64,000 bases of DNA, taken from NCBI RefSeq assembly GCF_029360775.1, contig NZ_JARKMZ010000028.1, positions 558,001 to 622,000 on the forward strand. The letters run 5' to 3'. The notes below the pieces were generated by a model that was not told the DNA's origin, ran no database searches, and saw only the letters and a program-made list of their open reading frames with translations. Of this stretch, positions 4,103 to 31,421 are shown in pieces. Position 1 is the stretch's first letter, and each line of letters opens with the position of its first letter. The stretch comes from Daejeonella sp. H1SJ63. Its GTDB lineage: Bacteria > Bacteroidota > Bacteroidia > Sphingobacteriales > Sphingobacteriaceae. A program made the translations under genes and the position numbers.

Positions 4103-5344
4103 ATGGAAAGAAGAAAATTCATAAAGTCAGCAGTTTTAGGCTCAGCAGGACTGATTGCAGGCTATCCCTGGTTAGGAGCTGAAGCAGCTTCCGGACTTAA
4201 AATTACAAAGATCAGATATTATGCCGCACCGGGATATAATAAACCTCTTTTCAACCAGGCCCGTGGTATTGTCGAAATTGAAACAAATGAGGGTATCATT
4301 GGAATAGGTGAAGGCGGTTCTAAAGATATGATTGAGCAATGTGCCCGAATGATGATTGGAGAAGACCCCTTTCGCATCGAGCATATATGGCAAAACCTTT
4401 ACAGGGGCATGTTTTATCCTCCCGGAAGGGAAAAATTACATGCTGTAGGTGCATTGGAAATGGCCTTATGGGATATTAAAGGAAAGGCCTTAAATGTTCC
4501 TGTCTATGAACTTCTTGGGGGCTCTACGCGCGAATATGTGGAATGTTATGCTACAGGATTCAGACCTTCTAAAGCCACAACTGAAGAAGAAAGAGCAAAT
4601 GATTGTCTCAAAGCGGGGTTTCGATCCTATCGTATCGGCCCGACAGGTGGTAATGGTGATCAGCCCTTTGATTTCTATCAGAATGCCTCAAAAACAATTG
4701 ATTACTGTAAAAGGATAGATAAGGCAGTTGGTGGGAATGGAAACTGGGCTATTGATTTGCATACCCGTTTTGACACACCCGAAGCTTTAAAGATATGTAA
4801 TGCACTGGAAGAACTGAGTCCGTATTTTATAGAGGATGCTATTCGCTCTGAAAATCCGGGTGTTTACCGTTCATTCAGAACCTTAACAAAGGCTCCTTTA
4901 GCCGTAGGTGAGCAATTTGGCGATCGTTGGGATACCAATGAATTGATTGAACAGCACCTGATCAATTATTCAAGAGTTACCTTACCTAATACCGGGGGGA
5001 TTGTTGAGTTTAAGAAGATTGCGGCCCTTTGCGAAACGCATTATGTAGGTATGCTTCCGCATTTTACCGGACCTTTATCTACAGCTGCATTAGTTCATGT
5101 TTTAGGCTCAAGCAGTCCTTCACGTGTAATGATGGAATTAGCTGGTGGTGAAACAGAAAAACCTGTATACTTTAATGAAGATTATCTCAGATTTTCCAAT
5201 GGGCAACTGTATTTAAATCCGGAACCCGGACTGGGGGTTAAGTTTAATCCTAAGAAGGCCGATTTTATAATGGAAATTAAGGAAAATACCAAATTCCCTC
5301 ATCCCATTCTGAAAAGTCCTGATGGGGCTATTCATAACTGGTAA
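4103..5344 (+). CDS. Tat-exported enolase-superfamily acid-sugar dehydratase (galactonate dehydratase-like)
   Basis: Mandelate-racemase-subgroup member of the enolase superfamily. Metal ligands are visible as D218 (in a DLH motif with H220), E244 (FIEDA) and E270 (VGEQF). H320, in a PHFTGP motif, sits where galactonate dehydratase has its catalytic histidine. This pattern suggests syn-dehydration of a six-carbon aldonate to a 2-keto-3-deoxy acid. The N terminus (ERRKFIKSAVLG, then a weakly hydrophobic stretch ending near AEAAS) is a twin-arginine signal, so the folded, Mg-loaded enzyme would be exported; most aldonate dehydratases are cytoplasmic. It lies upstream of DgoK and the aldolase that would use its product. 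Racemase or epimerase activity cannot be excluded. Confidence 0.88.
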   Translation: MERRKFIKSAVLGSAGLIAGYPWLGAEAASGLKITKIRYYAAPGYNKPLFNQARGIVEIETNEGIIGIGEGGSKDMIEQCARMMIGEDPFRIEHIWQNLYRGMFYPPGREKLHAVGALEMALWDIKGKALNVPVYELLGGSTREYVECYATGFRPSKATTEEERANDCLKAGFRSYRIGPTGGNGDQPFDFYQNASKTIDYCKRIDKAVGGNGNWAIDLHTRFDTPEALKICNALEELSPYFIEDAIRSENPGVYRSFRTLTKAPLAVGEQFGDRWDTNELIEQHLINYSRVTLPNTGGIVEFKKIAALCETHYVGMLPHFTGPLSTAALVHVLGSSSPSRVMMELAGGETEKPVYFNEDYLRFSNGQLYLNPEPGLGVKFNPKKADFIMEIKENTKFPHPILKSPDGAIHNW

Positions 5345-6715: not shown

Positions 6716-7702
6716 ATGAAGACTATTTTATGCTGTGATTGGGGAACAACTTCGTTCAGACTGAGGTTGGTTGACAGGGATACATATATTGTTCATGCTG
6801 AGCTTTTATCGTCAACTGGTGTGGCTGCCACATTCAGGGCATGGAAAGAGCAAACCGAAATCAGTCGATTTGATTTCTATTCTGCAAGACTCAGATCAAG
6901 TATTCAGGAATTAGCTGAAAAGAATGCGGTTAATACCGATAACATTCCGGTGATTGTGTCAGGCATGGCTTCTTCCTCACTTGGAATGGAAGAGATTCCG
7001 TATGCAGTTTTACCTTTTAATATTAATGGAAGTCAGGCATCGGTTCGTGTTTTTGAAGAATATAACGGTTCAAATGCTCCATTAATTATTGTTTCAGGTG
7101 TGAGAAGTAATGAGGATGTGATGCGAGGGGAGGAAGCTCAGTTGATAGGCCTTATTCAGTTAAATGAAGTTAACCTGGATGAAAATGAGGAATATGTATT
7201 TGTGTTTCCTGGTACTCATTCCAAACATATTGAGGTAAAGGGTGGAGATATGGTTGATTTCAGGACATTTATGACCGGAGAGGTATTCAATATTTTATCA
7301 GAACACAGCATATTAAAAGATTCAGTACTATTGGATAATTCGATAAAACTGAGTGATCCTATTGCGCTTAAAGCCTTTACATCAGGAGTAGAAAACTCGG
7401 CTGAATCTTCAATTCTTCATACTTTATTTACTGTAAGAACAGCTCAGCTTTTCGGGAAGTTCAGCAAGGAATATAATTCATTTTATTTGAGTGGTTTGCT
7501 CATTGGTGATGAGCTCAGACAATTAAAGCCAGATATGAACAGAAATCTCGTCATTTGCAGCGGGAAACATTTATATGAGCATTATAAAATTGCATCAGAT
7601 ATCCTTAGATTAACACAAAAAACAATTTTTATACAAGCTGAACTGATTGATAAAGCAACAATTGCAGGCCAGGTTCAGCTATTTAATGCATTACATAATT
7701 AA
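6716..7702 (+). CDS. dgoK: 2-dehydro-3-deoxygalactonokinase
   Basis: Sugar-acid kinase that phosphorylates 2-keto-3-deoxy-galactonate with ATP. It begins with the ASKHA-type phosphate-binding strand DWGTTSFR at residues 8-15, typical of DgoK. The 328 aa length and the lack of a signal peptide fit a cytoplasmic kinase. It ends one base before the start of the downstream aldolase gene, so the two are almost certainly cotranscribed and act in sequence. It is one of the few cytoplasmic enzymes in the 1-32 kb block, which marks the point where the pathway's product has been imported. Activity on the gluconate epimer (KDG) is possible and would be indistinguishable from sequence alone. Confidence 0.9.
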   Translation: MKTILCCDWGTTSFRLRLVDRDTYIVHAELLSSTGVAATFRAWKEQTEISRFDFYSARLRSSIQELAEKNAVNTDNIPVIVSGMASSSLGMEEIPYAVLPFNINGSQASVRVFEEYNGSNAPLIIVSGVRSNEDVMRGEEAQLIGLIQLNEVNLDENEEYVFVFPGTHSKHIEVKGGDMVDFRTFMTGEVFNILSEHSILKDSVLLDNSIKLSDPIALKAFTSGVENSAESSILHTLFTVRTAQLFGKFSKEYNSFYLSGLLIGDELRQLKPDMNRNLVICSGKHLYEHYKIASDILRLTQKTIFIQAELIDKATIAGQVQLFNALHN

Positions 7703-7703
7703 T

Positions 7704-8342
7704 ATGAATAATAACGATTTTTCGTGGTCAGCATTTAATAAGGTTCCGGTAGTAGGAATAGTCAGGAACCTGTCTTTTGATGATATTGCCAAAATTCTGC
7801 CGGTTTATCTCTCTTCTGGTTTGACCACAATAGAGATAACCATGAATACCCCCTTTGCAGAGGATATCATTCGATATGCGGTAGATAAGTATAAAGGTCA
7901 GTTGAATGTTGGAGCAGGTACGGTATGCAGTTTAGATGATTTGAAGCAGGCGCTTCAGGCAGGCGCTCAATTTATTGTTACCCCAATTCTTAATCCGGAG
8001 GTTGTGAAATATTGCTCCCGTGAAGGAATACCTGTTTTTCCGGGTGCATATACTCCAACAGAAATTTATCAGGCATGGGAACTGGGAGCTACTATGGTAA
8101 AGGTTTATCCTGCAACTGCTTTAGGACCCGACTATATTAAGGATGTTAAAGCTCCGCTCAATAAAATCAAATTATTGCCAACCGGAGGAATCAGTCTGGC
8201 GAATATGCAAAGCTTTATCAAAGCCGGTGCTGATGGTTTGGGAATAGGCGGGCAATTGTTTGATAAGAATCTCATCAAATCTGCTGATTGGGAAGGCTTG
8301 AAAGATCATTTTAAACAGTATGTCAATTACTTTTCGTCATAA
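7704..8342 (+). CDS. dgoA: 2-dehydro-3-deoxy-6-phosphogalactonate (KDPGal/KDPG) aldolase
   Basis: Class I aldolase cleaving 2-keto-3-deoxy-6-phospho-aldonate to pyruvate and glyceraldehyde 3-phosphate. The start is taken as the ATG at 7704, just after the kinase stop; an earlier in-frame ATG at 7647 would overlap dgoK. The Schiff-base lysine is K133 in MVKVYPA, with E44 in the IEITMNTP strand and R21 after GIV. The MNTP segment resembles the LNSP of E. coli DgoA more than the arginine-containing strand of Eda, which hints at a galacto substrate. There is no signal peptide, so it is cytoplasmic. With DgoK it forms the lower part of a De Ley-Doudoroff-type route. Confidence 0.9.
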   Translation: MNNNDFSWSAFNKVPVVGIVRNLSFDDIAKILPVYLSSGLTTIEITMNTPFAEDIIRYAVDKYKGQLNVGAGTVCSLDDLKQALQAGAQFIVTPILNPEVVKYCSREGIPVFPGAYTPTEIYQAWELGATMVKVYPATALGPDYIKDVKAPLNKIKLLPTGGISLANMQSFIKAGADGLGIGGQLFDKNLIKSADWEGLKDHFKQYVNYFSS

Positions 8343-8368: not shown

Positions 8369-9679
8369 ATGGTAGCTCCAAAAGGAAAAAATTATCGCTG
8401 GCTGATTGTCGTCTTATTATTTACAGGTACGGTCATCAATTATCTTGATCGTCAGATTATTGGTTTGTTAAAACCTACGCTTGAGTCTGAGTTCAGCTGG
8501 ACTGAAACTGATTTTGGAAAGATTATGTCTGCATTTTCATTCGCATATGCAATTGGACTGCTTGTTTCAGGAAGATTTATTGATAAAGTAGGAACAAAAC
8601 TCGGCTATAGTGTTGCTGTTGTGGTTTGGAGTTTGGCTGGTATGTTTCATGCATTGGCAAAATCTGTTACTGGTTTTGGAATAGCAAGACTTTCACTGGG
8701 TATTGGAGAGGCCGGCAATTTCCCTGCAGCAATGAAGGCGGTTGCAGAATGGTTCCCCAAAAAAGAAAGAGCACTTGCAACCGGTATTTTTAATTCAGGC
8801 ACAGCTATTGGTGTTGTGGTCGCATTGATCATTGTTCCGATTATTATGCAGAATTATGGATGGCACGAAGTGTTCTGGATTACCGGTTCAATGGGTTTTG
8901 TATGGTTGTTATTCTGGCTTTGGTTATATGATGTGCCCGCTAAACAGAAAAGATTAAGTTCTGAGGAATTGGAATATATTGAAAGTGATAAGGGTGATAC
9001 TACAGATCAGGTTAAAAGTTCTGTTAAAATATCATGGGGTAAATTGTTTTCCATCCCGCAGACCTGGGCAATTGTTACCGGTAAGTTTCTGATCGATCCT
9101 ATTTTCTGGTTTTTCCTGTTTTGGTTACCTTCCTACTTTTCTTCAACGTTTAATCTTGATCTTAAAGTAATCAGTCCCGAGCTGATGCTTATTTACGGCG
9201 CTACAACGGTTGGGAGTATTGCCGGCGGGTATTTCTCATCAGTGCTGATTAACAAAGGTTGGCCAACATTAAAAGCAAGAAAAGGTGTTCTTTTATTATT
9301 TGCCGTCATTGAATTATGTATTATGATTGCTATTGCTCAGTTTGTAACAGATAAATGGGCTGCAGTAGGGCTGATTAGTTTGGCTGTTGCTGTTCATCAG
9401 GCATGGGCCACCAATATTTTTACCATGGCTTCTGATATGTTCCCGAAAGATGTGGTAAGCTCAGTTGTAGGAATAGGAGGGATGACCGGTGCAATTGGAG
9501 GGATACTCTTCCCGATATTTGTGGGTTATCTGCTTGATGTTTATAAAATTGCAGGAAATCTGACGGGTGGTTATAATCTTATATTCACCATTTGTGGTGC
9601 AACCTATCTCACTGCCTGGCTTATTATTCACTTGCTGACCAGAAAACCGGCTAATGTACCCGATGTGAAAAATATTTAA
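8369..9679 (+). CDS. MFS transporter, hexuronate/aldonate (ExuT, ACS) type
   Basis: Twelve-helix major facilitator protein of the anion:cation symporter family. The first helix carries INYLDRQ and the fourth segment NFPAAMKAVAEWFPKKERALATGIFNSG, typical of hexuronate and galactonate transporters. It follows the kinase and aldolase genes by 26 bases and would import the sugar acid they use. A second, unrelated transporter (BASS family at 30.1 kb) sits at the far end of the same block, so two acids or two import modes may exist. Substrate assignment among glucuronate, galacturonate, galactonate and 2-keto-3-deoxy-aldonates is not possible from sequence. Confidence 0.9.
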   Translation: MVAPKGKNYRWLIVVLLFTGTVINYLDRQIIGLLKPTLESEFSWTETDFGKIMSAFSFAYAIGLLVSGRFIDKVGTKLGYSVAVVVWSLAGMFHALAKSVTGFGIARLSLGIGEAGNFPAAMKAVAEWFPKKERALATGIFNSGTAIGVVVALIIVPIIMQNYGWHEVFWITGSMGFVWLLFWLWLYDVPAKQKRLSSEELEYIESDKGDTTDQVKSSVKISWGKLFSIPQTWAIVTGKFLIDPIFWFFLFWLPSYFSSTFNLDLKVISPELMLIYGATTVGSIAGGYFSSVLINKGWPTLKARKGVLLLFAVIELCIMIAIAQFVTDKWAAVGLISLAVAVHQAWATNIFTMASDMFPKDVVSSVVGIGGMTGAIGGILFPIFVGYLLDVYKIAGNLTGGYNLIFTICGATYLTAWLIIHLLTRKPANVPDVKNI

Positions 9680-9691
9680 CGGTATATAATT

Positions 9692-10609
9692 ATGAATACG
9701 ATTTTAAATTATATTAAAAAGGCCTCACTTTTTTGTGCTCTGTTGGGCTCTCCGGTCTTTGTTTCAACTGCAAACGCCCAGTTGTACAATTTCACCGAAG
9801 AGCAAATGAAAAGTTATACTAAGGAGAACCCTTATGGTCGTTTTCCGGGCGGAAGACCAATGATACCGGCAGCAATTTTGGATACCATTCGTAAAATGGA
9901 TATTCAGGTGGTTGAGGCAATTGGTTCAATACCAAGAGAGTATTCCAATCAGTATGAAGATGGATGGAAATCCTTAATTCCGGGAAAAAAGCTTGTTGGT
10001 CGTGCATTTACTGTACAATTCATGCCTTCACGTCCTGATCTTGTTGCCGGGATGCAGGCAGAGGCAGATAAAAATAATTTTACCGGCCTTAACAACAGAA
10101 CAACAATTGATATGCTACAGAAAGATGATTTGGTGATCGTTGATCTGTTCGGAAAAGTGCAGGGTGGAACGTATGTAGGCGATAAATTGTCCTACTATAT
10201 CTGGAAAACTACCGGTACCGGATTGATTGTTGATGGTGGGATCTATCTGACTGAGAACATTCAGCAAAGTGGTATGCAGGCATTTTACCGTGGTACCTAT
10301 CCAGGTGCATTGAGTAATGCCACTGTTTCAGGTATCAATGTTCCTATCCGTATCGGAAAAGCTGTTATTATGCCCGGCGATCTTGTAATTGGTGATCAGG
10401 ATGGAATTCTGGCAATCCCGCCTCAGTTTGTTCCAAAGCTTATCGCTAATGTTACCCGCGACCGCCGCCGTGATTTCTGGATGAAACGTGCATTTGATCT
10501 TGGGAAATACAAGTCGAGCGATATTTACGGACGTCCTAAAGATCCGGCATTGCTTAAACAGTTCGAAGAGTATTTAAACACAGGTGATGCTAAATTGTTG
10601 CCCAGATAA
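9692..10609 (+). CDS. exported RraA-like protein lacking the catalytic Arg-Asp pair
   Basis: RraA/HMG-CHA-aldolase fold protein with a Sec signal peptide (cleavage near TANAQ, about residue 29). It keeps the family C-terminal signature PGDLVIGDQDGILAIPP and an ENPYGRFPGGRP segment shared with the second RraA copy at 29.1 kb. Where active aldolases and the second copy have DG..RD, this protein has D181-G-G-I-Y185-L186, so the arginine and aspartate that bind and activate the substrate are missing. Possible roles are a diverged enzyme or a non-catalytic binding partner. Most RraA-fold proteins are cytoplasmic, so export is itself unusual. It follows the transporter by 12 bases and is probably cotranscribed with it. 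Confidence 0.85.
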   Translation: MNTILNYIKKASLFCALLGSPVFVSTANAQLYNFTEEQMKSYTKENPYGRFPGGRPMIPAAILDTIRKMDIQVVEAIGSIPREYSNQYEDGWKSLIPGKKLVGRAFTVQFMPSRPDLVAGMQAEADKNNFTGLNNRTTIDMLQKDDLVIVDLFGKVQGGTYVGDKLSYYIWKTTGTGLIVDGGIYLTENIQQSGMQAFYRGTYPGALSNATVSGINVPIRIGKAVIMPGDLVIGDQDGILAIPPQFVPKLIANVTRDRRRDFWMKRAFDLGKYKSSDIYGRPKDPALLKQFEEYLNTGDAKLLPR

Positions 10610-19896: not shown

Positions 19897-21438
19897 ATGA
19901 ATAACAAAGTTGTTTATTTTCTGTTTTTTAGTTTTTTAGTTTCAATATTCTTATCATTTAAATCAAATGAAAGTATTCAGGAACCATGGAAGGCCCCGGA
20001 ATCTGCTGATACCATAAAAAGCCCGTATTCATTCACTCCATCATTTATCAGGGAAGGAGAGAAGTTATATAATACCTTATGTGTTACCTGTCACGGACAG
20101 AACGGATTGGGAGATGGTCAGCCCGGCAGATATAAAATTGAACCTGCCAATTTTCATAAGAAGCAGGTTACAGATCAGAAAGATGGCGCTATATTCTGGA
20201 AGTTAAGTAATGGAAGAGGTATAATGCCTGCTTATGGGGTTGCATTGTCAGAGGAGAAGCGCTGGCAATTGATTGCTTATATAAGGCAGTTTGCTAAACA
20301 GAACCTTGATTTGTCTGCAAAGAAAGTAGTGGTGCCTCTTAAAAATTATGGAATAAACAGGGCCGTGCCAAGCCCTTATTTTCCATTACCGGCTAAAGTT
20401 AGCAATGCCATAGCTACTGAGGAACTTGTATTGATGGTAGATACCGTAGCTAAAGGATTGAAGAGGGCATGGAGCCTTACTTTTTTACCTGATCATTCTG
20501 TATTGATTGCAGAAAGAAGTGGTAAAATATTACGTATGAAAGGTGGAAAATTACTTGATACGCTAACGGGTAATATCCCATCAAGTCTGCGGGATATTAA
20601 GCTTCATCCTGATTTTAAAACAAATAACCTTGTTTATCTCTCTTACTATATAGAACCTGTAAAAGCTGCCGGTACCGGAGGTTATACCGCCCTGATGAGA
20701 GCCAGATTACAGGGAAACAAACTGCTTGATGAAAAGACAATTTACAAGGCAGGGCCTTTTAAAAACAATGGAGATTGGTTTGGCAGTAAAATTGGCTTCG
20801 ATAAGGGTTATGTATTTTTCTCGGTAGGAATCCATAGTCCAAGAAATAATGCGCAAAGTCTGTCAGCATTTGATGGAAAAACAATGAGGTTGCATTATGA
20901 TGGCAGTATTCCTAAGGATAATCCGTTTGTTAATACCCCGGGAGCCTTGCCTGAAATCTATTCATATGGGCATCGTATGCACCAGGGTATGCGCCGCGAT
21001 CCTAAAACCGGAAGAATGATGGTGGTTGAATTTGGTGAGTTAGCGGGTGATGAACTTAATGTTTTGAAACCGGGAGCAAATTATGGATGGCCGATTGCTA
21101 CATACAGCCTCGAATACAGCGGCGCAATTATTTCTGAAAGTCCGTTTAAAGAGGGTGTTGAACCTCCAATTCATCACTATGCAATTGCGCCGTCAGATTT
21201 TGATTTTGTATATGGAACTAATTATCCGGCTTGGGATGGTAATATCTTTATAGGGGGACTTGCAACCAAAAAATTGTATCGTTTGGTAATGAAGGACGAT
21301 AAATTTGTTCATGATGAAGCATTATTGCATAATCTCGGCCGTATCAGGGAAGTTGTTTACGGACCGGATCATTTCTTATATGCAATGACTGAGGATACAG
21401 GAATTCTTGTTCGTCTCATTCCTTTAAAGAAATTATAG
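19897..21438 (+). CDS. exported cytochrome c - PQQ-type sugar dehydrogenase fusion
   Basis: Two-domain exported oxidoreductase. After a signal or anchor helix (residues 5-21), a class I cytochrome c domain carries the haem motif C62-V-T-C65-H66 and a probable axial methionine in NGRGIMPAY. Residues about 175-510 form a soluble-glucose/sorbosone-dehydrogenase beta propeller (WSLTFLPDHSVLIAERSG, GHRMHQGMRRDPKTG, LKPGANYGWP). The expected reaction is PQQ-dependent oxidation of a sugar to a lactone, with electrons passed to the fused haem. The haem-domain linker QEPWKAPESADTIKSP is shared with the stand-alone cytochrome at 27.1 kb. Calcium and PQQ ligands were not verified, and PQQ biosynthesis genes are not in the window. 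Confidence 0.88.
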   Translation: MNNKVVYFLFFSFLVSIFLSFKSNESIQEPWKAPESADTIKSPYSFTPSFIREGEKLYNTLCVTCHGQNGLGDGQPGRYKIEPANFHKKQVTDQKDGAIFWKLSNGRGIMPAYGVALSEEKRWQLIAYIRQFAKQNLDLSAKKVVVPLKNYGINRAVPSPYFPLPAKVSNAIATEELVLMVDTVAKGLKRAWSLTFLPDHSVLIAERSGKILRMKGGKLLDTLTGNIPSSLRDIKLHPDFKTNNLVYLSYYIEPVKAAGTGGYTALMRARLQGNKLLDEKTIYKAGPFKNNGDWFGSKIGFDKGYVFFSVGIHSPRNNAQSLSAFDGKTMRLHYDGSIPKDNPFVNTPGALPEIYSYGHRMHQGMRRDPKTGRMMVVEFGELAGDELNVLKPGANYGWPIATYSLEYSGAIISESPFKEGVEPPIHHYAIAPSDFDFVYGTNYPAWDGNIFIGGLATKKLYRLVMKDDKFVHDEALLHNLGRIREVVYGPDHFLYAMTEDTGILVRLIPLKKL

Positions 21439-21586: not shown

Positions 21587-23233
21587 ATGAAACGAAGAAA
21601 TGTGTTAAAAGGACTTGCCTTGATTCCACTTAGCGGAGCCGTCCTTGGAAAAGAATCGGTCGCCAGTCCTGTCAGTGCCTCAGCGGGACTTGAATCGGCT
21701 TCCATTATAAATAAGCCGGCATTCATGGCAGAAACAAATATTTTTCGGTCAATTGGAGTTGAGCCGATAATAAATTGCCGTGGAGCATATACTATTATCG
21801 GAGGTTCATTAGAGCTGCCTCCTGTACGTGAAGCAATGGAAGCAGCTGCACATAATTTTGTGCAGTATGATGAATTAGCCGAAGGTATTGGTCAGAGATT
21901 GGCTGATTTAACGAAAGCTGAGTGGGGTATGGTTTCTGCAGGTTGTGCTGCTGGTATGAAACATATCACTGCCGCATGTGTAACAGGTGGTGATCCCGAA
22001 AAGTTAATTCGAATTCCGGATCTAAGCGGCTTTGATAAGAACGAAGTGATTATTCCACTTTATTCAAGAAACACCTATGATCATGCTGTCAGGAATATTG
22101 GTGTTAAGATAGTTCATGTTTCCAATGCAGCTGAGCTTGAAAAAGCGATTAATCCTAAAACTGCAATGATTTATGTAAATGCAGTTAACGGCTCATTTAC
22201 TGGTCAGCCATTTTCGCTGGAAGTAATTGCAAGTGTAGCTAAGCCCAAAAATATTCCGGTTCTTATTGATGCAGCAGCCGAGAATCTGACTATTCCTTCT
22301 GTCCATCTTAAGCGAGGTGCAGACCTTGTTGCCTATAGCGGAGGTAAAGCTATAAGAGGACCTCAGTGTGCTGGTTTGATGCTTGGCAGAAAGGATATTC
22401 TGATGTCGGCATGGCAGGCAAGTTCACCTCATCATGGTCCGGGTCGTGATAATAAGGTAGGTAGAGAAGAGATGATAGGTATGATGGCTGCAGTAGAAAC
22501 ATGGATTAAACGGGATCATGATGCAGAATATAAAACATGGACTTCCAGACTTGATTTTATGGCTAAAAGGGTCCAAAACATTCCTGGTGTTAAAACAGCA
22601 ATTGAACATCCCGAAGAATTGTCAAATAAGCATCCAACACTCAGAATTTTCTGGGATCCTGCAAAGTTCCATGTTACCGCTTATGAAGTTGCTGAAGAGC
22701 TGGGTAGTACAAAGCCGAGAGTAGCAATAGGTTCAAGAGATGAGAGCGATGGAACCACTTCAATTGATATTGTTTCAAGTCATATGCAGGATGGTGAAGA
22801 AAAGATTGTGGCCGACAGAGTATTCGAGGTATTGTCCAGAAAGCGTAATCCTAAATCTGATGTCATGGCTGCCCCTGCAGCTAATTTATCCGGTATTTGG
22901 GATGTAGATGTTAAGTTTTTTAGCAGCACTATCAGACATACCATCAATATTCAGCAGGATGGTAACTGGATTAATGGTACCCATAAAAGTCAATTCGATG
23001 AACGCAGCATAGGCGGTACACTTGAAGGTAATCTAATCAAGCTTAGCAGTACTATGCAGCGGCCGGGCGATCGTATTACATTCTATTTCTCGGGTACCGT
23101 GAGTGTAGATAAAATGTCGGGCGATATCCATATGGGAGAATATCGCACCGCTAAATTTACTGCTGTTAAAAATACTGCAAAACCAGCACGTAAGAAAGTG
23201 CTTGTTCCTAAAGGCCCGCCATTGGCAACCTGA
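21587..23233 (+). CDS. Tat-exported SelA/DgaE-like PLP enzyme with C-terminal beta domain
   Basis: Fold-type I PLP enzyme of the SelA-like group that includes D-glucosaminate-6-phosphate ammonia lyase (DgaE) and EF_0838. PLP lysine is K254 in YSGGKAIRGPQ, with D228 (LIDAA) as the partner of the pyridine nitrogen. The N terminus is a twin-arginine signal (KRRNVLKGLALIPLSGAV), implying export with PLP already bound, which is rare. Residues about 435-535 form an added beta-rich domain (GIWDV...GTLEGN...GTVSVDKMSGDIHMGEY) not needed for catalysis in cytoplasmic relatives, followed by a basic, proline-containing tail. The likely reaction is elimination of ammonia from an amino-aldonate to give a 2-keto-3-deoxy acid. 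The substrate is inferred from neighbours. Confidence 0.87.
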   Translation: MKRRNVLKGLALIPLSGAVLGKESVASPVSASAGLESASIINKPAFMAETNIFRSIGVEPIINCRGAYTIIGGSLELPPVREAMEAAAHNFVQYDELAEGIGQRLADLTKAEWGMVSAGCAAGMKHITAACVTGGDPEKLIRIPDLSGFDKNEVIIPLYSRNTYDHAVRNIGVKIVHVSNAAELEKAINPKTAMIYVNAVNGSFTGQPFSLEVIASVAKPKNIPVLIDAAAENLTIPSVHLKRGADLVAYSGGKAIRGPQCAGLMLGRKDILMSAWQASSPHHGPGRDNKVGREEMIGMMAAVETWIKRDHDAEYKTWTSRLDFMAKRVQNIPGVKTAIEHPEELSNKHPTLRIFWDPAKFHVTAYEVAEELGSTKPRVAIGSRDESDGTTSIDIVSSHMQDGEEKIVADRVFEVLSRKRNPKSDVMAAPAANLSGIWDVDVKFFSSTIRHTINIQQDGNWINGTHKSQFDERSIGGTLEGNLIKLSSTMQRPGDRITFYFSGTVSVDKMSGDIHMGEYRTAKFTAVKNTAKPARKKVLVPKGPPLAT

Positions 23234-23274: not shown

Positions 23275-23361
23275 AAAAAAGACATTTTGGTGTTTTTTTG
23301 TTGCTTTCCTTGGTAACTCTGTATCTTATTTTTAATTTAGATTCATATAACATTATTGAGT

Positions 23362-24666
23362 ATGAAAAAAATATTACTTGCTTTCATTTCTTCACTCATT
23401 CTTACTTCCTGTTCGAATAAAAAGGATTATGAAATTGTTTTCGCGAATCCCGAATTGTATTCTAAAACAGTGGGTTTATTGACTGATGTCATTACCTATG
23501 ACATTTTTAATCCGCCGGTAGCCAGCAGGATTTATGCTTACAGTAATCTGGCAGCTTATGAGGTAATTTCATCTAAATCAGATAAGTATAAATCGATTGG
23601 TGCAAAATTCAAGGATTTTAAGAAACCGGAACTTTCAGATAAACCAATTAATAAAGAGTTTGCTGCACTTATGGCTTTAATGTATGTAGGGAAGGAGCTA
23701 ACTTTTTCAAAAGATTCAACTCAGAAAATTATTGATGGACATATCCAATTGGCAAAAGATAATGGAATGCCTGACGATATATTAGAGAATTCACAGGAAT
23801 ATGCTCATGCTTACAGTAAAGCTGTTTTAGATTGGAGTAAGAATGATAATTATAAGAAAACACGCTCTGACGTTAAATATTCAGTAAATACCAGGGAAGG
23901 CAGATGGGTTCCAACTCCACCTGCATATATGCCTGCTGTAGAACCTAACTGGATGAAAATACGTACTGTTCTGATTGATTCAGCAAGCCAGTTTTTGCCT
24001 AAACCACCCGCAGATTTCAGTAAATCAAAAGACAGTAAGTTTTATGAATTAGCTGATGAAGTATATCAAACCGGACTCAAATTAACAGACCAGCAAAAAG
24101 CAATTGCAGATTTTTGGGACTGTAATGGTTTTAAGGTCAATGTTTCAGGTCATGTGATGTTTGCTACAAAAGCTATGACACCCGGAGGCCACTGGATGGG
24201 TATAACAGGTATTGTAAGTAAAAATCAGAAGGCAGATTTTGATAAAACAGTATATTCATATGCAGGTGTTTCAATTGGCATAATGGATGCATTTATTGCA
24301 TGCTGGAATACAAAATTTACATATGATCTTTTAAGACCGGAAACGTATATCAATCAATTTATTGATAATGCATGGAAACCTTATCTTCAAACGCCGCCAT
24401 TTCCCGAGTATACCAGCGGGCATTCAATCATTTCGAGTTCTGCTGCTACAATTCTGACAAATATTTATGGTGAGAATACAGCTTTTGTTGATTCTACTGA
24501 AAGACGCTGGGGATGGCCTGACAGAACATTTAAAAATGTTAGAGAGGCTGCAAATGAAGCTGCACTTAGTCGTCTTTTAGGGGGCATTCATTATCGTGAA
24601 GCTATGGAAGAGGGCCTGGTTGAAGGTAAAAAGATAGGAGAACTTGTTTTTAGTAAATTGAATTAA
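23362..24666 (+). CDS. PAP2-superfamily, vanadium-haloperoxidase-like lipoprotein
   Basis: Exported lipoprotein with lipobox LTSC at about residues 15-18. The C-terminal half has the PAP2/vanadium-peroxidase signature: a lysine-containing KAMTPGGHWMGI segment, FPEYTSGHSIISSSAA, and RLLGGIHYREAMEEG, which supply the Ser-Gly-His and Arg/His anion-binding residues. The fold hydrolyses phosphate esters or, with vanadate, oxidises halides; which applies here is unclear. The start is the ATG at 23362, as an upstream TTG at 23356 adds only two residues. It sits between the PLP enzyme and a cytochrome lipoprotein, with separate hairpins on either side, so it may be transcribed alone. Its link to sugar catabolism is not obvious. 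Confidence 0.85.
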   Translation: MKKILLAFISSLILTSCSNKKDYEIVFANPELYSKTVGLLTDVITYDIFNPPVASRIYAYSNLAAYEVISSKSDKYKSIGAKFKDFKKPELSDKPINKEFAALMALMYVGKELTFSKDSTQKIIDGHIQLAKDNGMPDDILENSQEYAHAYSKAVLDWSKNDNYKKTRSDVKYSVNTREGRWVPTPPAYMPAVEPNWMKIRTVLIDSASQFLPKPPADFSKSKDSKFYELADEVYQTGLKLTDQQKAIADFWDCNGFKVNVSGHVMFATKAMTPGGHWMGITGIVSKNQKADFDKTVYSYAGVSIGIMDAFIACWNTKFTYDLLRPETYINQFIDNAWKPYLQTPPFPEYTSGHSIISSSAATILTNIYGENTAFVDSTERRWGWPDRTFKNVREAANEAALSRLLGGIHYREAMEEGLVEGKKIGELVFSKLN

Positions 24667-24870: not shown

Positions 24871-25416
24871 ATGAAACGAATTTTTATCCTGGGTGTATGT
24901 GCCCTTTTTATCGCTTGTAACAGTTCATCTGAAAAGGCGAGTGAAACAGATTCATCTACCGTAGTAACAACGGATACGACTGCAGTGGTTTCAACAACTG
25001 ACACTACTGGTGCGGCTGTTGCTGCTCCTGTTCCTGCTGAAAGTCCTGCAGTTAGTCAACCTGTTACAGAAACAAAAACTCCTGAAGCTGCTCCTGCTAA
25101 AACAGCTGCCGTAAAGGAATCGGCCCCTGTTAAACCTGCCGCTGCTGCTGATAATGTTGACCTTAAAAAAGGTGAAACTCTGATTTCAAAATCTGATTGT
25201 TTTGCTTGCCATAAAGTTCAGGAGAAGGTTTTAGGACCATCCTACAAAGACGTAGCAAACAAATATGAAAAAACCAAAGCTAATATCGATTATCTGGTTA
25301 ATAAGATTAAAACCGGCGGAAGCGGTGTTTGGGGAGCAGTTCCGATGTCACCACATCCTGCATTATCTGATGACGATTTAAAAGCAATGGTTCAGTATAT
25401 TCTGAGCCTTAAATAA
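24871..25416 (+). CDS. c-type cytochrome lipoprotein with Ala/Thr/Pro-rich linker
   Basis: Small electron carrier tethered to a membrane. The lipobox is FIAC (C16). Residues about 17-94 are a low-complexity Thr/Ala/Pro linker with repeated TDTT motifs. The C-terminal domain is a c551/c552-type cytochrome with haem motif C110-F-A-C113-H114 and a probable axial methionine in VPMSPHP, ending in LKAMVQYILSL. A flexible tether would let the haem move between partners such as the PQQ dehydrogenases and a terminal oxidase. Flanked by hairpins on both sides, it appears to be its own transcription unit. Confidence 0.9.
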   Translation: MKRIFILGVCALFIACNSSSEKASETDSSTVVTTDTTAVVSTTDTTGAAVAAPVPAESPAVSQPVTETKTPEAAPAKTAAVKESAPVKPAAAADNVDLKKGETLISKSDCFACHKVQEKVLGPSYKDVANKYEKTKANIDYLVNKIKTGGSGVWGAVPMSPHPALSDDDLKAMVQYILSLK

Positions 25417-25625: not shown

Positions 25626-26561
25626 ATGGCGACCAGTAGTTTATTGTTCAATAATAGAAAAGAGCTTAAGGCATTGGCTTTAACTTTACTTTTATCTTCA
25701 GGTACATTTTATAGTCAGGCTCAAAGCAAAGCTTTGTTTCAATCAGTAGAATTGACTTCTGTGAATAGTTTTACCAGAGGCGCTGAAGGACCTGCGGTAG
25801 ATTCAAAAGGTACAGTTTATGCTGTTAATTATGGTAAAGAAGGTACGATTGGTCAGGTAACGATTGATGGTAAAGCCGGGTTGTTTATAGAACTACCAGC
25901 GGGAAGTGTTGGCAATGGAATTCGTTTTGACAGTAAGGGAAATATGCTGGTTGCTGATTATACCAGACATAATGTTCTCAAAGTAGATATGCGAAGCAAA
26001 CAGATTAGTGTATTTGCCCATAATCCGGAAATGAGCCAGCCTAATGATATTGCGATTGACAGCAAGGACAGGTTATATGCCAGTGATCCAAACTGGAAAG
26101 AAGGTACAGGTAGAATTTGGCGTATCGATCTTGACGGGAAATCAACTTTACTCGAAACGATGGGTACCGCCAACGGAATTGAAGTGAGTCCTGATAATAA
26201 GTATCTCTATGTTAATGAATCAATTCAGCGTAAAGTCTGGAAGTACGATTTGAATGTAAAGGGAGAAATCAGTAATAAACGTTTGATTCATGAGTTCCCT
26301 GATTTCGGAATGGATGGAATGCGCTGTGATGCTGAAGGGAATTTATACATAACAAGACACGGAAAAGGTGCTGTAGCTATACTTTCACCCGAGGGGAAAC
26401 TCTTGAGGGAGATTCCAACAATTGGGAAACTTCCAAGTAATATCGCATTTGGTGGAAATGACGGACGTACAGTTTACATCACGCTGCAGGATAGAAGGAA
26501 TATGGAGAGCTTCAGAGTCGAAAATCCGGGCCGTGAATGGAAAATGTCAAAAGTTAAATAA
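25626..26561 (+). CDS. exported SMP-30/gluconolactonase-like lactonase
   Basis: Six-bladed beta propeller of the SMP-30/gluconolactonase/LRE family, 311 aa. The expected reaction is hydrolysis of an aldonolactone to the free aldonic acid. Metal-site segments are visible as GAEGPAVD, QPNDIAID, ANGIEVS and GMDGMRCD, giving the Glu, Asn, Asn and Asp pattern of the family. A hydrophobic segment ending near FYSQAQS (about residue 33) is a signal peptide, so lactone hydrolysis would happen outside the cytoplasm. It is followed after 23 bases by the Tat-type RidA gene and lies between two PQQ dehydrogenase modules, whose lactone products it would process. Confidence 0.87.
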   Translation: MATSSLLFNNRKELKALALTLLLSSGTFYSQAQSKALFQSVELTSVNSFTRGAEGPAVDSKGTVYAVNYGKEGTIGQVTIDGKAGLFIELPAGSVGNGIRFDSKGNMLVADYTRHNVLKVDMRSKQISVFAHNPEMSQPNDIAIDSKDRLYASDPNWKEGTGRIWRIDLDGKSTLLETMGTANGIEVSPDNKYLYVNESIQRKVWKYDLNVKGEISNKRLIHEFPDFGMDGMRCDAEGNLYITRHGKGAVAILSPEGKLLREIPTIGKLPSNIAFGGNDGRTVYITLQDRRNMESFRVENPGREWKMSKVK

Positions 26562-26584: not shown

Positions 26585-27052
26585 ATGAAAACACAAAGAA
26601 GATCTGTATTGAAGAAATTGTTTGCTTCAGTAGTTGGTGTAACAGGAATAGGAATGGTTGCTAATGCTAAAGCGGTTGAAGCGGCTCCTGAAAAAGAGGC
26701 TGGAAATATTACTGAATTTCAGAATGTTCCATTGTTTTCTGGACATACGATTCACAATGGTCTGGTTTACATTGCAGGAAAGGGAGCCCATACCGATCCA
26801 TTCGATATTAAGTCACATACAGAGATAGTTCTTAAAGAACTTGAAAAGGAATTGATTAAAGCCGGATCATCTATGGAAAAGGTTCTAAAAGTGACTGTAT
26901 ACCTCAATGATATTGCTGATTATAAAGGCATGAATGAGGTTTATAAGGGTCGCTTTGGAAGTAAACCTCCGGTTCGTACTACCATTGCAGTTGCTAAGGG
27001 AGGTGTTCCCGGCGATTCATTGGTTGAGATGGATGCGATTGCTTATTTATAA
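26585..27052 (+). CDS. Tat-exported RidA/YjgF-family imine deaminase
   Basis: RidA proteins hydrolyse reactive enamine/imine intermediates released by PLP-dependent eliminations. This 155-aa protein has an intact RidA domain from about residue 42, with the catalytic arginine R131 (PPVRTTI) and glutamate E148 (DSLVEMDAIA). Unlike usual cytoplasmic RidA, it starts with a twin-arginine signal (QRRSVLKKLFASVVG) and an alanine-rich cleavage region near AKAVEAAP. In the same block the SelA-like PLP enzyme also has a Tat signal, so both may meet in the same compartment and cooperate in ammonia elimination. Other RidA-fold functions are possible. Confidence 0.9.
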   Translation: MKTQRRSVLKKLFASVVGVTGIGMVANAKAVEAAPEKEAGNITEFQNVPLFSGHTIHNGLVYIAGKGAHTDPFDIKSHTEIVLKELEKELIKAGSSMEKVLKVTVYLNDIADYKGMNEVYKGRFGSKPPVRTTIAVAKGGVPGDSLVEMDAIAYL

Positions 27053-27088: not shown

Positions 27089-27120
27089 AGCCAGTACAGA
27101 TAACCAATCTTGTATTGGCT
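27089..27120 (+). terminator. hairpin between ridA-like and cytochrome genes
   Basis: AGCCAGTACA pairs with TGTATTGGCT (one G-U) around a 12-base loop. No clear T-run follows, so termination is uncertain; it lies 26 bases before the next start codon and could be a leader structure. Confidence 0.4.
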
Positions 27121-27145
27121 GTATAATTGTAAATACCAAAATAAG

Positions 27146-27595
27146 ATGAAAAAATACAGTTTCTATACATTATTCTTGCTGGGAGGGATAAGTGTTTTTA
27201 TGCTTTCAGCTTCAACTAATTACAATGCATACAGTAGTGTCAATCTGACTGATACTATCAGACAGGAAGCCTGGTTGGCTCCTTCCTGGGCAGATACTAT
27301 TAAAAATTCCATCAAGGTTTCTCCCGAAAATATTGCCAAAGGTGAAGAGATGTATAATATGTATTGTTTTTCATGTCATGGGGATACTGGTTATGGTGAT
27401 GGACCTGCCGGGGGATCTATGGGAGTGAGACCTGCTAATTTTCATGATCAGAGGGTAATTAAGCAGAAAGATGGTGCTCTTTTCTGGAAACTTACAAATG
27501 GTAAGGGTAATATGCCGCCATTTAAAGAAGTTCTGACAGTTGAACAACGCTGGCAAATGATTCTCTGGCTGAGAGAATTGGGTAAGCAACAGTAG
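27146..27595 (+). CDS. exported class I cytochrome c
   Basis: Small monohaem cytochrome of 149 aa with an N-terminal signal or anchor helix. Haem motif C74-F-S-C77-H78 and a probable axial methionine in NGKGNMPPF. The segment AWLAPSWADTIKN before the haem domain, and the RPANFHD and KQKDGALFWKL segments after it, are closely similar to the haem domain fused to the PQQ dehydrogenase at 19.9 kb. The start is placed at the ATG at 27146; an upstream ATG at 27110 lies inside a hairpin and adds a polar stretch. It ends 11 bases before the separate PQQ-dehydrogenase-like gene, so the two are the split counterpart of that fusion. Confidence 0.92.
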   Translation: MKKYSFYTLFLLGGISVFMLSASTNYNAYSSVNLTDTIRQEAWLAPSWADTIKNSIKVSPENIAKGEEMYNMYCFSCHGDTGYGDGPAGGSMGVRPANFHDQRVIKQKDGALFWKLTNGKGNMPPFKEVLTVEQRWQMILWLRELGKQQ

Positions 27596-27606
27596 TACAG
27601 TTTTGA

Positions 27607-29049
27607 ATGAAGAGATTTATTAATTCAGTATTAGTTCCTGGTCTGATCATTATTTATTCGGCAGCTGCTTTCTCTCAATCTGGCAGACCGGCAGCCGTTC
27701 AGCATACTCCGAAAGCATTAAGACCGGATATCAGGATAGAAAAATATATGCCCGTTGCTTCAAAGGCTGTTAGATTGCTTTTTGAACCTAAATCGGGAAT
27801 TTTTTATTATACTGATTTTTCAGGTGGGGTTTACCGGATCAAAACTACATTGGGTAATCCTGAATCTGAACTGGTGTTTAGTGCAGCCGATCACGGCATT
27901 ACCCGTTTACAGGGCGCGGTATTTTCAGGAAAATATCTGTTTTTATGCGGTAATATCAGTGTAAACAACAATAAAGGTACGAAAGGCCGTATGGTTCGTT
28001 ATGATATGTCATACGTGGAAAAACCTGAAATGACTGTAGTATTTAATACAGTTGAATATGGTACAAATGCCACAACTTTTGATCATGGCTGGAACGCGCT
28101 TGAAGCAAGTGCCGATGGCAAATATATTTATGCGAATACCGGGGCACGTACTGATCATGGTGAAGTACAGGATAACAGAGGAGCTTACCCAAATGCCCGC
28201 GACAATGCATTGACAGCAAAAATATTCAGGTTCCCTGCTGATGCAAAAGATTTGGAGCTTCCAAATGATCTGGAAAAACTAAAATCTATGGGATATATTT
28301 ATGCTGAAGGTATCCGTAATGCATATGATATCGCTTTTGATGCGAAGCAGAATTTATTTGCTGTGGTTAATTCGTCAGACTATGATCATAATGAAGATAT
28401 GTTCTGGGTTAGGGAAGGTAAACATTATGGATTTCCATGGGTTATGAGCGGAATTGAAAACCCTCAGCAATATCCTGATTGGCAGCCGAATCCGGATACC
28501 GATCCTTTTATTCCCAGAAGTTCACATGCATGGACTGTAAAATATTTCAGGAATGATCCTGAATTTCCAAAGATTCCGGCAGGTGTGAAGTTTTCTCCGG
28601 GAGTTCAGAATCTTGGTCCCGATGCTAATGAATACCGCGGACATTCCGGGAAAATACTTGACGGTGATAATACTGGTTTAACAACCAGTACATTTACTCC
28701 GCACAGCTCCCCTCTGGGATTGGTTTTCGACACAAAGAATGCATTATCCCGTGATTTTAAAGGGGATGGATTTGTACTCAGAAACTCATTGGGTAGCAGG
28801 TCAAGTATGATGAAGCCATTTACTAATGAGGGCAGAGACCTTTTGCATCTGAAATTGACATATGATAAGGGTAGTGATAATTACTTTGTTAAAACTACCA
28901 GAATCATGGATTCGTTTAATAATCCAACAGATGCAGTATTGGTTGGCAACGAGCTTTATGTAATTGAGTATGATGCCAGAGAAGGCAGTATCTGGAAGAT
29001 TACCCTTCCTTCAGGTTCTGGTAAGGCTAAGAAAGTGAAGAATAATTAA
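27607..29049 (+). CDS. exported PQQ-dependent sugar dehydrogenase-like protein
   Basis: Soluble glucose/sorbosone-dehydrogenase-type beta propeller, 480 aa, with a Sec signal peptide ending near AAFSQ (about residue 25). Recognisable blade segments include DHGWNALEASADGKYIYANTG, YAEGIRNAYDIAFD and REGKHYGFPWVMSG. The expected activity is oxidation of a sugar to a lactone, with electrons given to the small cytochrome encoded immediately upstream. The protein is diverged from the fused copy at 19.9 kb, so the two may differ in substrate. Cofactor ligands could not be checked by alignment, and a non-PQQ or binding function remains possible. Confidence 0.82.
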   Translation: MKRFINSVLVPGLIIIYSAAAFSQSGRPAAVQHTPKALRPDIRIEKYMPVASKAVRLLFEPKSGIFYYTDFSGGVYRIKTTLGNPESELVFSAADHGITRLQGAVFSGKYLFLCGNISVNNNKGTKGRMVRYDMSYVEKPEMTVVFNTVEYGTNATTFDHGWNALEASADGKYIYANTGARTDHGEVQDNRGAYPNARDNALTAKIFRFPADAKDLELPNDLEKLKSMGYIYAEGIRNAYDIAFDAKQNLFAVVNSSDYDHNEDMFWVREGKHYGFPWVMSGIENPQQYPDWQPNPDTDPFIPRSSHAWTVKYFRNDPEFPKIPAGVKFSPGVQNLGPDANEYRGHSGKILDGDNTGLTTSTFTPHSSPLGLVFDTKNALSRDFKGDGFVLRNSLGSRSSMMKPFTNEGRDLLHLKLTYDKGSDNYFVKTTRIMDSFNNPTDAVLVGNELYVIEYDAREGSIWKITLPSGSGKAKKVKNN

Positions 29050-29142: not shown

Positions 29143-30066
29143 ATGAAAATAAAATTATTAGTGCTTACTGCCCTGGTTATTATTTCGGCAAGTAGCTTTT
29201 TATGTGCCCAGACAATTCCTAAAGACGAACTTATTTTTCTAACCTCTGAATGGAAAGGTGCGCGTTTCCCTGATGGAAGACCTAAAATTAATGATGACCT
29301 TTTGGAAAGAGCCAAAAAGATCGGAATGGATGATGCATGGCAGGTTTTGAAAGTAATGGGATATGTTAATCAATTTGAACATGGATGGAAAACCCTGAAT
29401 GATGAAATTATTACAGGCCGTGCTGTTACTGCGATGTACATGCCTAATCGTCCTGATGTTGAAAAGAATATAAAAGAGCGTGGTGCAAAGCAGGGTCGTG
29501 TAGGAAACACCAATTCATGGCCTATTGCTGTTTTGAATAAGGGAGATGTTTATGTGGCTGATGGATTTAGTAAGATCGTTGGTGGTTCACTGATTGGTAG
29601 TACTCTTGCAACTTCAATTTATGTAAAGTCTGGTAACGGTGTCATTTTTGATGGTGCAGCCCGTGATGTTCAGGGACTTGAAGAAATTAAAGGGTTTAAT
29701 GCCTACGTAAGGGATTTCCATCCGGGATTTATGGAAGAAATGCTTTTAATGGGATTGAATACCCCAATTCGCATTGGTCAAACAATGGTAATGCCGGGCG
29801 ATCTTGTTATTGCGGGTAAAATTGGAGTTTTATTTGTGCCGGCTCATTTAGCAGAACAGGTAGTTTCTACGGCTGAATTCATCGTCAGAAGAGATAAATA
29901 TGCATTTGAAGTAGTTAAATCCGGAAAATATTCAAGCGGACAATTGGATAGCCAATGGACTGAAGAAATGAAGCTTGATTTCTTAAAATGGATGGAAAGA
30001 CATCCTGAAGAAGGGAAAATGACTAAAGCAGAGCTTGATGTTATCATGAGTAAAAGAACCTGGTAG
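29143..30066 (+). CDS. exported RraA-like aldolase/decarboxylase-type protein
   Basis: Second RraA/HMG-CHA-aldolase-fold protein of the locus, 307 aa, with a signal peptide ending near FLCAQ (about residue 22). Unlike the copy at 9.7 kb it retains the conserved pair R174-D175 in FDGAARDVQG, along with the C-terminal MPGDLVIAGKIGVLFVP segment. This makes it the likely active member. The family splits 4-hydroxy-2-keto acids by retro-aldol reaction or decarboxylates oxaloacetate-like acids. Both copies share an RFP.GRP segment before the fold, which suggests a distinct exported subfamily. It sits 42 bases before the BASS transporter gene. Confidence 0.87.
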   Translation: MKIKLLVLTALVIISASSFLCAQTIPKDELIFLTSEWKGARFPDGRPKINDDLLERAKKIGMDDAWQVLKVMGYVNQFEHGWKTLNDEIITGRAVTAMYMPNRPDVEKNIKERGAKQGRVGNTNSWPIAVLNKGDVYVADGFSKIVGGSLIGSTLATSIYVKSGNGVIFDGAARDVQGLEEIKGFNAYVRDFHPGFMEEMLLMGLNTPIRIGQTMVMPGDLVIAGKIGVLFVPAHLAEQVVSTAEFIVRRDKYAFEVVKSGKYSSGQLDSQWTEEMKLDFLKWMERHPEEGKMTKAELDVIMSKRTW

Positions 30067-30107: not shown

Positions 30108-31421
30108 TTGAAAAATTTAAACATTTATTCTTTGTCCCTGGGCCTGGCATTGCTTTGCTTGATCGGAGCTCTTTTTTTAATCTTCAGGGGAGATTCTGCA
30201 GATGCAGGACCATTGTTGATTTTCTTTTTTACTGCCCTTGCGATAGGTGTTAGAGGTACAAAAACCTTTAAGGCCTTTTCTTATACTATCTGGATATTTA
30301 CAGCAGTAACTGCATCCATGTTTTATCCTCAGTATTTTGTCTCAATTGGCGATTTTCAACTTAAAACCATGATTGTACCTTTGTTACAGGTAATCATGTT
30401 TGGTATGGGATCTCAAATGAGTTTTGAAGATTTTACCGGAGTCATTAAGATGCCTAAAGGAGTGATTATTGGTGTTGGTGCCCATTATATTATTATGCCA
30501 ATGGTTGCGTTTGGTATTGCTCATATCTTTAATTTTCCACCTGAAATCGCTGCCGGAATTATTTTGATCGGAACAGTTCCGAGTGGTTTGGCTTCAAACG
30601 TAATGTCTTATTTAGCTCACGCAAACCTCGCTCTTGCCGTTACCATTGGGGCTATTTCAACTATAATTTCTCCGTTTGTAACTCCATTATTGATGCAATT
30701 GTTAGGCGGTCAGTATATTCAGGTTGATTTCTGGCACATGATGCTTGATATTTTGAATATGATCATTATGCCAATTGTTGCAGGCTTTATGTTTAACCTT
30801 TTCTCTAAAAATGAGGCAAGTCAGAAATCGAAAATTTTTCAGTTGATTGGATATTTTGTAGTTGTTGTTTTGACAAATCTGGTATACATGAAATCAAGCG
30901 GATCTGATTTTAGCGGATTCCTTACTGCTTTAAGTAAATCGTTAATCTGGTTCTATATATTACCAATGGTTGGTGCCATTTTACTGCGTAAACTTGTAAA
31001 AGGAGATGATAGCTGGATGGGAAGTGCACTTTCAATGATCTCGATGGTTGGTATTGCTGTGATCATTTCTATCATTACCGCAGCCGGTCGAGATAGTTTA
31101 TTACAGGTAGGCTTATTATTGATTATCACGAGCTTACTTCATAATGCTGCCGGTTATATCCTTGGTTATAGTGTTTCATGGGCAGCAGGTATGCCTGAAA
31201 AGGATCGTCGTACTGTAGCCTTTGAAGTAGGTATGCAAAATGGTGGTCTGGCGTCTGGTTTAGCACTTCAAATGGGTAAGATTGCTACCGTCGGTTTAGC
31301 TCCTGCTATTTTCGGCCCATTAATGAATGTTACCGGTTCTGCACTTGCCAGCTGGTGGAGAAGCAGACCTCCTCTGGAAGATCTTGAAGCTGAAAAGAAT
31401 ACTTCACAAGCCAGTCATTAA
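30108..31421 (+). CDS. BASS-family (bile acid:sodium symporter-like) transporter
   Basis: Membrane transporter with about ten or more hydrophobic helices, 437 aa. The crossover-type segments GTVPSGLASNVMSYLAHANLALAV and the late EVGMQNGGLASGLA match the bile acid:Na+ symporter/arsenite permease fold, which includes carriers of keto acids and other organic anions. The N terminus carries two additional helices. The start is a TTG at 30108. It ends the oxidative part of the locus and could import a keto acid made outside the cytoplasm, for instance the product of the adjacent RraA-like enzyme. Substrate is unknown. Confidence 0.88.
   Translation: MKNLNIYSLSLGLALLCLIGALFLIFRGDSADAGPLLIFFFTALAIGVRGTKTFKAFSYTIWIFTAVTASMFYPQYFVSIGDFQLKTMIVPLLQVIMFGMGSQMSFEDFTGVIKMPKGVIIGVGAHYIIMPMVAFGIAHIFNFPPEIAAGIILIGTVPSGLASNVMSYLAHANLALAVTIGAISTIISPFVTPLLMQLLGGQYIQVDFWHMMLDILNMIIMPIVAGFMFNLFSKNEASQKSKIFQLIGYFVVVVLTNLVYMKSSGSDFSGFLTALSKSLIWFYILPMVGAILLRKLVKGDDSWMGSALSMISMVGIAVIISIITAAGRDSLLQVGLLLIITSLLHNAAGYILGYSVSWAAGMPEKDRRTVAFEVGMQNGGLASGLALQMGKIATVGLAPAIFGPLMNVTGSALASWWRSRPPLEDLEAEKNTSQASH

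Follow-up and report, generated by a model that had tools for sequence, protein, structure and literature searches.

The window analysed here is a stretch of 64,000 nt from Daejeonella sp. H1SJ63. It contains a block of genes for predicted exported proteins and sugar-acid metabolism, listed below with coordinates, strand and profile bit scores:

27-917, +, amidohydrolase/deacetylase family protein, 296-aa ORF, partial at the window edge (NF006689, 290 bits)
951-2252, +, predicted exported amidohydrolase/deacetylase family protein (NF006689, 394 bits, exceeding the cut-off of 371)
4103-5344, +, Tat-type enolase-superfamily sugar-acid dehydratase-like protein (NF010624, 205 bits, below the cut-off of 311)
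6716-7702, +, 2-keto-3-deoxy-galactonokinase (DgoK) family protein (PF05035, 201 bits)
7647-8342, +, KDPG/KHG aldolase (TIGR01182, 183 bits, exceeding the cut-off of 156)
8369-9679, +, MFS carrier, galactonate-transporter-like (TIGR00893, 243 bits, below the cut-off of 395)
9692-10609, +, second predicted exported RraA-like protein, lacking the Arg-Asp motif (PF03737, 73.3 bits)
19897-21438, +, fusion of cytochrome c and glucose/sorbosone (PQQ-type) dehydrogenase, GSDH (PF07995, 305 bits; PF13442, 49 bits)
21587-23233, +, Tat-type DGL/DgaE-like PLP enzyme with an extra C-terminal beta domain (TIGR01437, 161.9 bits; 7lc0)
23356-24666, +, PAP2/haloperoxidase-superfamily lipoprotein-like protein (PF01569, 34 bits)
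24871-25416, +, cytochrome c (PF00034)
25626-26561, +, predicted exported SMP-30/gluconolactonase-like protein (PF08450, 141 bits), 23 bp upstream of RidA
26585-27052, +, Tat-type RidA (residues R131, E148, N117 and F51)
27110-27595, +, cytochrome c (PF13442, 51 bits)
27607-29049, +, predicted exported protein, weakly GSDH-like (PF07995, 21.5 bits, below the cut-off of 25)
29143-30066, +, predicted exported RraA-like protein with an Arg-Asp motif, candidate class II pyruvate aldolase (PF03737, 54.9 bits; relative of 3noj)
30108-31421, +, SBF/PanS-like symporter, a conserved downstream gene (NF047939, 222 bits, below the cut-off of 400)

The amidohydrolase at 951-2252 has 8je0, 2ogj and 2ics as relatives in the PDB, and the galactonate-dehydratase-like protein at 4103-5344 is a further sugar-acid dehydratase in the block that may be exported.

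The RidA ORF starts with ATG and encodes 155 aa with the N terminus MKTQRRSVLKKLFASVVGVTGIGMVANAKA; an N-terminal segment (MKTQRRSVLKKLF...) precedes the RidA/Rid domain. Its PF01042 match (70.4 bits against a cut-off of 27.3, E 1.7e-19) places it in the Rid/RidA superfamily, while its TIGR00004 score of 63.5 bits lies below the 106.25 bits of the archetypal RidA subfamily, and we therefore class it as a Rid family member rather than an archetypal RidA. AlphaFold2 predicts a Rid fold for the protein (mean pLDDT 79.5, with pLDDT of at least 90 at 85 of 155 residues and low confidence in the signal region), and the Foldseek matches listed for it are Rid-family structures, among them chlorinated YabJ. 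R131 and E148 fall on the Arg and Glu conserved among Rid proteins of solved structure; the counterpart of R131 in E. coli TdcF is the catalytic Arg105. For comparison with relatives, a scan of named genomes with a RidA alignment returned at least 546 relatives, of which the best 80 loci were used, all in records named as Bacteroidota groups and some of them sharing a genome or species. Aligning the window protein with the 82 RidA ORFs of these best 80 loci and one from Granulicella (n = 84), we found R131 and N117 kept in 84/84 and E148 in 83/84, with Phe (F51) at the position equivalent to Tyr17 in 83/84. The initial annotation had described a RidA with a Tat-type N terminus and intact catalytic residues, and this description is borne out by the domain match, the Tat pattern, R131 and E148.

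To call Tat-type signals we applied a strict criterion, RRx[FLIVMA][LIVMF]K close to the N terminus, and signal calls throughout are rule-based rather than made by a trained predictor. Among the best 80 of at least 546 loci, the pattern occurs in 77 of 82 RidA ORFs and 74 of 88 DGL ORFs, some of which are truncated, compared with 10 of 514 unlabelled neighbours, 0 of 39 RraA-like proteins and 0 of 85 amidohydrolases; the Tat motif of RidA thus exceeds chance. The N termini of the amidohydrolases and RraA-like proteins are mostly of the Sec or lipoprotein type. The window RidA has both a twin-arginine n-region and a hydrophobic stretch, and TatC is encoded in the source genome (3.65 Mb). From these features we infer that RidA and the DGL-like enzyme are exported.

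The gene at 21587-23233 lies on the same strand as RidA at a distance of 3,355 bp. Its product has the DGL fold, and 7lc0 is its nearest PDB entry both by sequence and by fold, although Cap15, an O2-dependent PLP enzyme, is almost as near in fold. Its scores against the DgaE-family models are below the cut-offs (TIGR01437, 161.9 against 385.3; NF047797, 145.8 against 600), for which reason we call it DGL-like and regard any assignment of its substrate as a guess. The initial annotation had placed a SelA-like Tat enzyme in this block: a Tat-type PLP enzyme is indeed present, but it is DGL/DgaE-like, and identity as SelA was ruled out by a TIGR00474 score of 23.1 bits against a cut-off of 267.9. 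The PLP Lys is found in 119 of 120 exported DGL homologues. The residues aligned with the phosphate-site Arg of DGL are replaced in most of them, consistent with a non-phosphorylated substrate. At the column of the His162-His163 pair, where the alignment is gapped, only 1 of 120 has His, a search for the HH motif found it in 5 of 120, and the window protein has V-N in place of the pair. Like DGL/DgaE, the partner enzyme has the DGL fold and the PLP Lys, and its gene is linked to those for a KDPG-type aldolase and an amidohydrolase/deacetylase, as in the Klebsiella operon. It differs in its predicted export, in its scores below the DgaE cut-offs and in having other residues at the positions of the His pair and of the phosphate-site Arg. 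Tat-type DGL-like genes are greatly expanded in the source genome, with 11 places from one search and more on reading of the loci (window 21587, L027, L062-L066 and L069-L073), and exported amidohydrolases are often alongside. The DGL clusters of L071-L073 have no RidA in the stretch read.

We analysed the co-occurrence of the two genes in two genome samples. In the order-level sample, RidA was found in 14 of 121 genomes, and the DGL search returned the identical 14. In a sample of 395 Bacteroidota genomes, 16 were positive for RidA at E <= 1e-14; eight of these align from query residue 1-3 and represent full-length Tat-RidA, while in the remaining eight the alignment begins at residue 31 or later (best E 2.9e-17) and none of the eight generic matches has a signal. 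The eight genomes with full-length Tat-RidA are exactly the eight with DGL, and the TIGR01437 profile found those eight and none besides in the 395-genome sample. The positives of the phylum sample cover five families and seven genera, and the chance probabilities computed for the co-occurrence ignore relatedness. When both samples were pooled (21 genomes), 24 of 28 RidA places had a DGL gene at 10 kb or less, and the four exceptions all occur in one genome of the source genome's genus, where DGL lies at 14-17 kb. Among the best 80 of at least 546 named-genome loci, DGL is present in 63, with a median RidA-DGL distance over those 63 of 46 bp. If the best 80 loci are restricted to the 45 flanked by 9.9 kb or more on each side, 38 of these 45 hold DGL; the seven without DGL within 10 kb are L134, L141, L144, L159, L188, L192 and L207. 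A whole-genome search in nine exception genomes (those seven and L168 and L191) found DGL elsewhere in eight, with one lacking it. In Pedobacter L141, L144 and L159, a GH18-family protein (identified in L141) is encoded a few kb downstream of Tat-RidA, with homologues in four loci. Outside Bacteroidota, a plasmid of Granulicella (Acidobacteriota) has the order RraA-DGL-RidA-DGL-amidohydrolase-lactonase, in which RidA and both DGLs are Tat-type. The RidA-DGL linkage therefore spans families and reaches a second phylum. The initial annotation had proposed a test of co-occurrence between Tat-RidA and Tat-SelA-like genes and named a Tat-RidA found mainly without an exported PLP enzyme close by as the refuting outcome; the test did not refute the pairing, and co-occurrence held at the level of genomes (8 = 8 in 395 and 14 = 14 in 121) and of loci (24/28 places; 38/45 of the fully flanked loci in the best 80).

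The wider neighbourhood varies with locus type. Many Mucilaginibacter-type loci among the best 80 of at least 546 have the core order SusC-SusD-RidA-DGL-amidohydrolase-RraA-SBF, and the type closest to the window in this set is GSDH-DGL-(unlabelled)-cytochrome-SMP30-RidA-cytochrome-GSDH-RraA-SBF. In several of these best 80 loci an SMP-30-type gene is labelled as adjoining RidA, and clusters represented by a GH18 protein (four loci) and a PIG-L de-N-acetylase (five loci) recur, which hints at N-acetyl amino sugars. In Daejeonella lutea (L076), genes for DGL, amidohydrolase, DgoK, KDPG aldolase, an MFS carrier and RraA are consecutive. An Arg-Asp motif, the active-site motif of class II pyruvate aldolases of the HMG/CHA type, is present in 54 of 57 aligned RraA-like proteins and in the protein at 29143-30066, whose PDB relative 3noj is an aldolase. 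Exported RraA-like proteins with this motif could cleave a 2-keto-3-deoxy acid.

Rid genes linked to DGL fall into two separate clades. The second clade, found in 41 of 121 order-level genomes, includes Rid proteins of Rhizobium, Paracoccus and Paraburkholderia that have no signal and are paired with DGL-like enzymes. We inspected the N termini of 47 of its members, counting L069 and L260, which are one gene, once, and counting as signal-less L070, L267 and L302, which a crude rule had labelled Sec/TM-like and which were judged false by eye. By inspection, 4 of the 47 have a lipoprotein or Sec-type signal, and all four are within 7 kb of a Tat-DGL, compared with 3 of 43 signal-less members within 10 kb (chance probability of this split 2e-4, relatedness ignored). 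Predicted export of Rid therefore tracks exported DGL in two clades. Signal-less Rid genes near Tat-DGLs are present at two loci, L027 and L070. A further Tat-RidA clade, separate from the DGL-linked family, is represented in the source genome by L067:8145-9220 and L064:6819-7310 (contigs C20 and C21); both genes adjoin exported FAD_oxidored proteins (PF12831) and have Gln, not Glu, at position 148, and the L067 stretch has no DGL. As a general counterexample to the DGL pairing this FAD-linked clade was ruled out, being present in only 2 of 121 order-level genomes. In the same genome, the ORF at L068:8611-9825 (contig C33) encodes 404 aa with a Sec-like N terminus and matches the Rid domain three times; it lies upstream of a gene for a Tat-type aminotransferase-family protein (DegT/DnrJ).

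In our interpretation, the Tat-type RidA works outside the cytoplasm together with DGL-like PLP ammonia-lyases that are likewise Tat-exported, as part of an amino-sugar-acid pathway; we assign this reading a probability of roughly 0.6. The cooperation in a new compartment proposed in the initial annotation gains support from genomics. In the proposed mechanism, GSDH and SMP-30 type enzymes would convert sugar to aldonate, and the amino-sugar acid would lose its acyl group to exported amidohydrolases before the DGL-like step. The DGL-like enzyme would then eliminate water from a non-phosphorylated 2-amino-2-deoxy-aldonate (e.g., glucosaminate) to give an enamine/imine, and RidA, acting outside the inner membrane, would hydrolyse this intermediate, yielding ammonia and a 2-keto-3-deoxy-aldonate. 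From there, flux may run either through cleavage of the keto acid by the exported RraA-like protein or through import for kinase and KDPG aldolase. That the DGL-RidA route yields such a keto acid is suggested by its linkage, in the upstream part of the window and in L076, to genes for DgoK, KDPG aldolase and an MFS carrier. More tentatively, and on balance doubtfully, the genes for GSDH/cytochrome c, SMP-30, amidohydrolase, Tat-DGL, Tat-RidA, RraA-like protein and SBF symporter might constitute a full extracytoplasmic, phosphate-free Entner-Doudoroff-like amino-sugar route, with C1 oxidation, lactone opening, deacylation, ammonia elimination, imine hydrolysis, retro-aldol cleavage to pyruvate and SBF uptake as its successive steps. 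If so, nitrogen removal from sugars and RidA chemistry would both happen outside the cytoplasm.

According to the available text of PMC9529869, DGL dehydrates its substrate and releases an imine, in the H163A mutant it is the enamine that is released, and His162-His163 is conserved in all DGLs. Judged from the alignment, the loss of His in exported DGLs (119/120 at this column) would favour enamine release. Loss of this proton donor was considered as the cause of the RidA pairing and rejected, based on plasmid-borne homologues, whose pattern reverses the prediction. Of 234 records that matched, 40 were listed, and 16 plasmid stretches chosen from these were read; leaving aside the exported Granulicella case, they comprise 15 homologues in which no signal was seen. 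SHH is kept in 10 of the 15, and nine of these ten have a Rid-family neighbour (that of Caballeronia assigned by N-terminal likeness to the Paraburkholderia one), the exception being Klebsiella DgaE; none of the five homologues without SHH has a Rid neighbour in the stretch read. His loss therefore cannot explain the pairing. The proteobacterial operons with a Rid neighbour resemble the Bacteroidota loci in having a DGL-like gene near a RidA-family gene, often with an amidohydrolase gene too, but differ in that no signal was seen, SHH is retained and the Rid proteins of three belong to the other clade. We know of no characterised member.

Alternatively, RidA may serve exported oxidases, hydrolysing imines that arise when PQQ- or FAD-type dehydrogenases oxidise amino sugars, with the DGL linkage reflecting no more than a shared amino-sugar locus. 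In Pedobacter L141, L144 and L159, RidA is flanked by SMP-30 and cytochrome c genes with DGL absent within 10 kb, the separate Tat-RidA family of the source genome adjoins exported FAD oxidoreductases, and the available text of PMC4433059 reports clustering of Rid genes with FAD amine oxidases and hydrolysis by Rid proteins of the imines that amino acid oxidase produces. However, in many Mucilaginibacter-type loci of the best 80 of at least 546, tens of bp separate RidA from DGL and neither a GSDH nor a cytochrome gene is labelled nearby, and the RidA and DGL genome sets are identical in both samples (8/395 and 14/121), so that we consider this explanation improbable.

The signal calls being rule-based and the signal region modelled with low confidence, one could also suppose that the N-terminal segment is no working export signal and that both proteins are cytoplasmic like their proteobacterial counterparts. 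We give this little credence in view of the frequency of twin-arginine motifs in RidA and DGL relative to other ORFs of the best 80 loci (77/82 and 74/88 versus 10/514), the TatC gene, and the lipoprotein or Sec-type signals borne instead by members of an unrelated Rid clade that adjoin DGLs. A role as a stress chaperone activated by N-chlorination outside the cytoplasm, rather than as an imine hydrolase, would fit the chlorinated YabJ among the listed fold matches, the PAP2/haloperoxidase-superfamily gene within the RidA block and the conversion of HOCl-treated E. coli RidA to a chaperone described in the available text of PMC4284807. It is highly unlikely, however, given that the PAP2-type gene recurs, by clustering, in only 7 of the best 80 of at least 546 loci, a weakly conserved link, whereas the catalytic Arg is kept in 84/84 aligned proteins and the DGL linkage is far wider.

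The partnership of Tat-RidA with exported DGL-like lyases can be compared with known systems. Gene linkage of Rid to PLP enzymes is already known, and a term search of the family survey PMC4433059 for "signal peptide", "periplasm" and "glucosaminate" gave no match. The window protein shares with the RidA/Rid (YjgF/YER057c/UK114) imine deaminases the Rid fold, the Arg and Glu found in the subfamilies that hydrolyse imines, and linkage to a PLP-enzyme gene, but differs in its Tat-type signal, the Phe in place of Tyr (83/84) and an exported DGL-like lyase as predicted partner. The closest functional parallel is the ong cluster for oxidative chitin use in Pseudoalteromonas, which, in the available text of PMC9537276, likewise combines a deacetylase, a PLP deaminase giving KDG, a KDG kinase and a RidA-family protein, OngD, that is essential for growth on GlcNAc1A and whose role is stated there as unknown. 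It differs in that the catabolic steps are assigned to the cytoplasm and the PLP enzyme OngC is of fold type III, not DGL-like (PMC9537276, available text). A literature search with most subscription journals outside its scope returned, among the publications listed, none recognised as dealing with an exported RidA or an exported DGL, which is weak evidence of absence. The new element is an extracytoplasmic version of the Rid/PLP-enzyme pairing, parallel to the cytoplasmic DGL/RidA operons.

RidA is usually regarded as a guard of cytoplasmic PLP enzymes. Judging from their gene content, some Bacteroidota appear to have moved RidA outside the inner membrane, beside an exported enzyme predicted to deaminate sugar acids, and an uncharacterised amino-sugar-acid pathway is likely in Bacteroidota and at least one member of the Acidobacteriota. 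If RidA and a PLP lyase form a conserved exported pair, imine hydrolysis would be required, either by the pathway itself or for protection of the exported enzyme, in a compartment expected to contain few PLP targets. The pairing would then separate the protective role of RidA from a direct catalytic one, a question that is also raised by OngD in the ong cluster.
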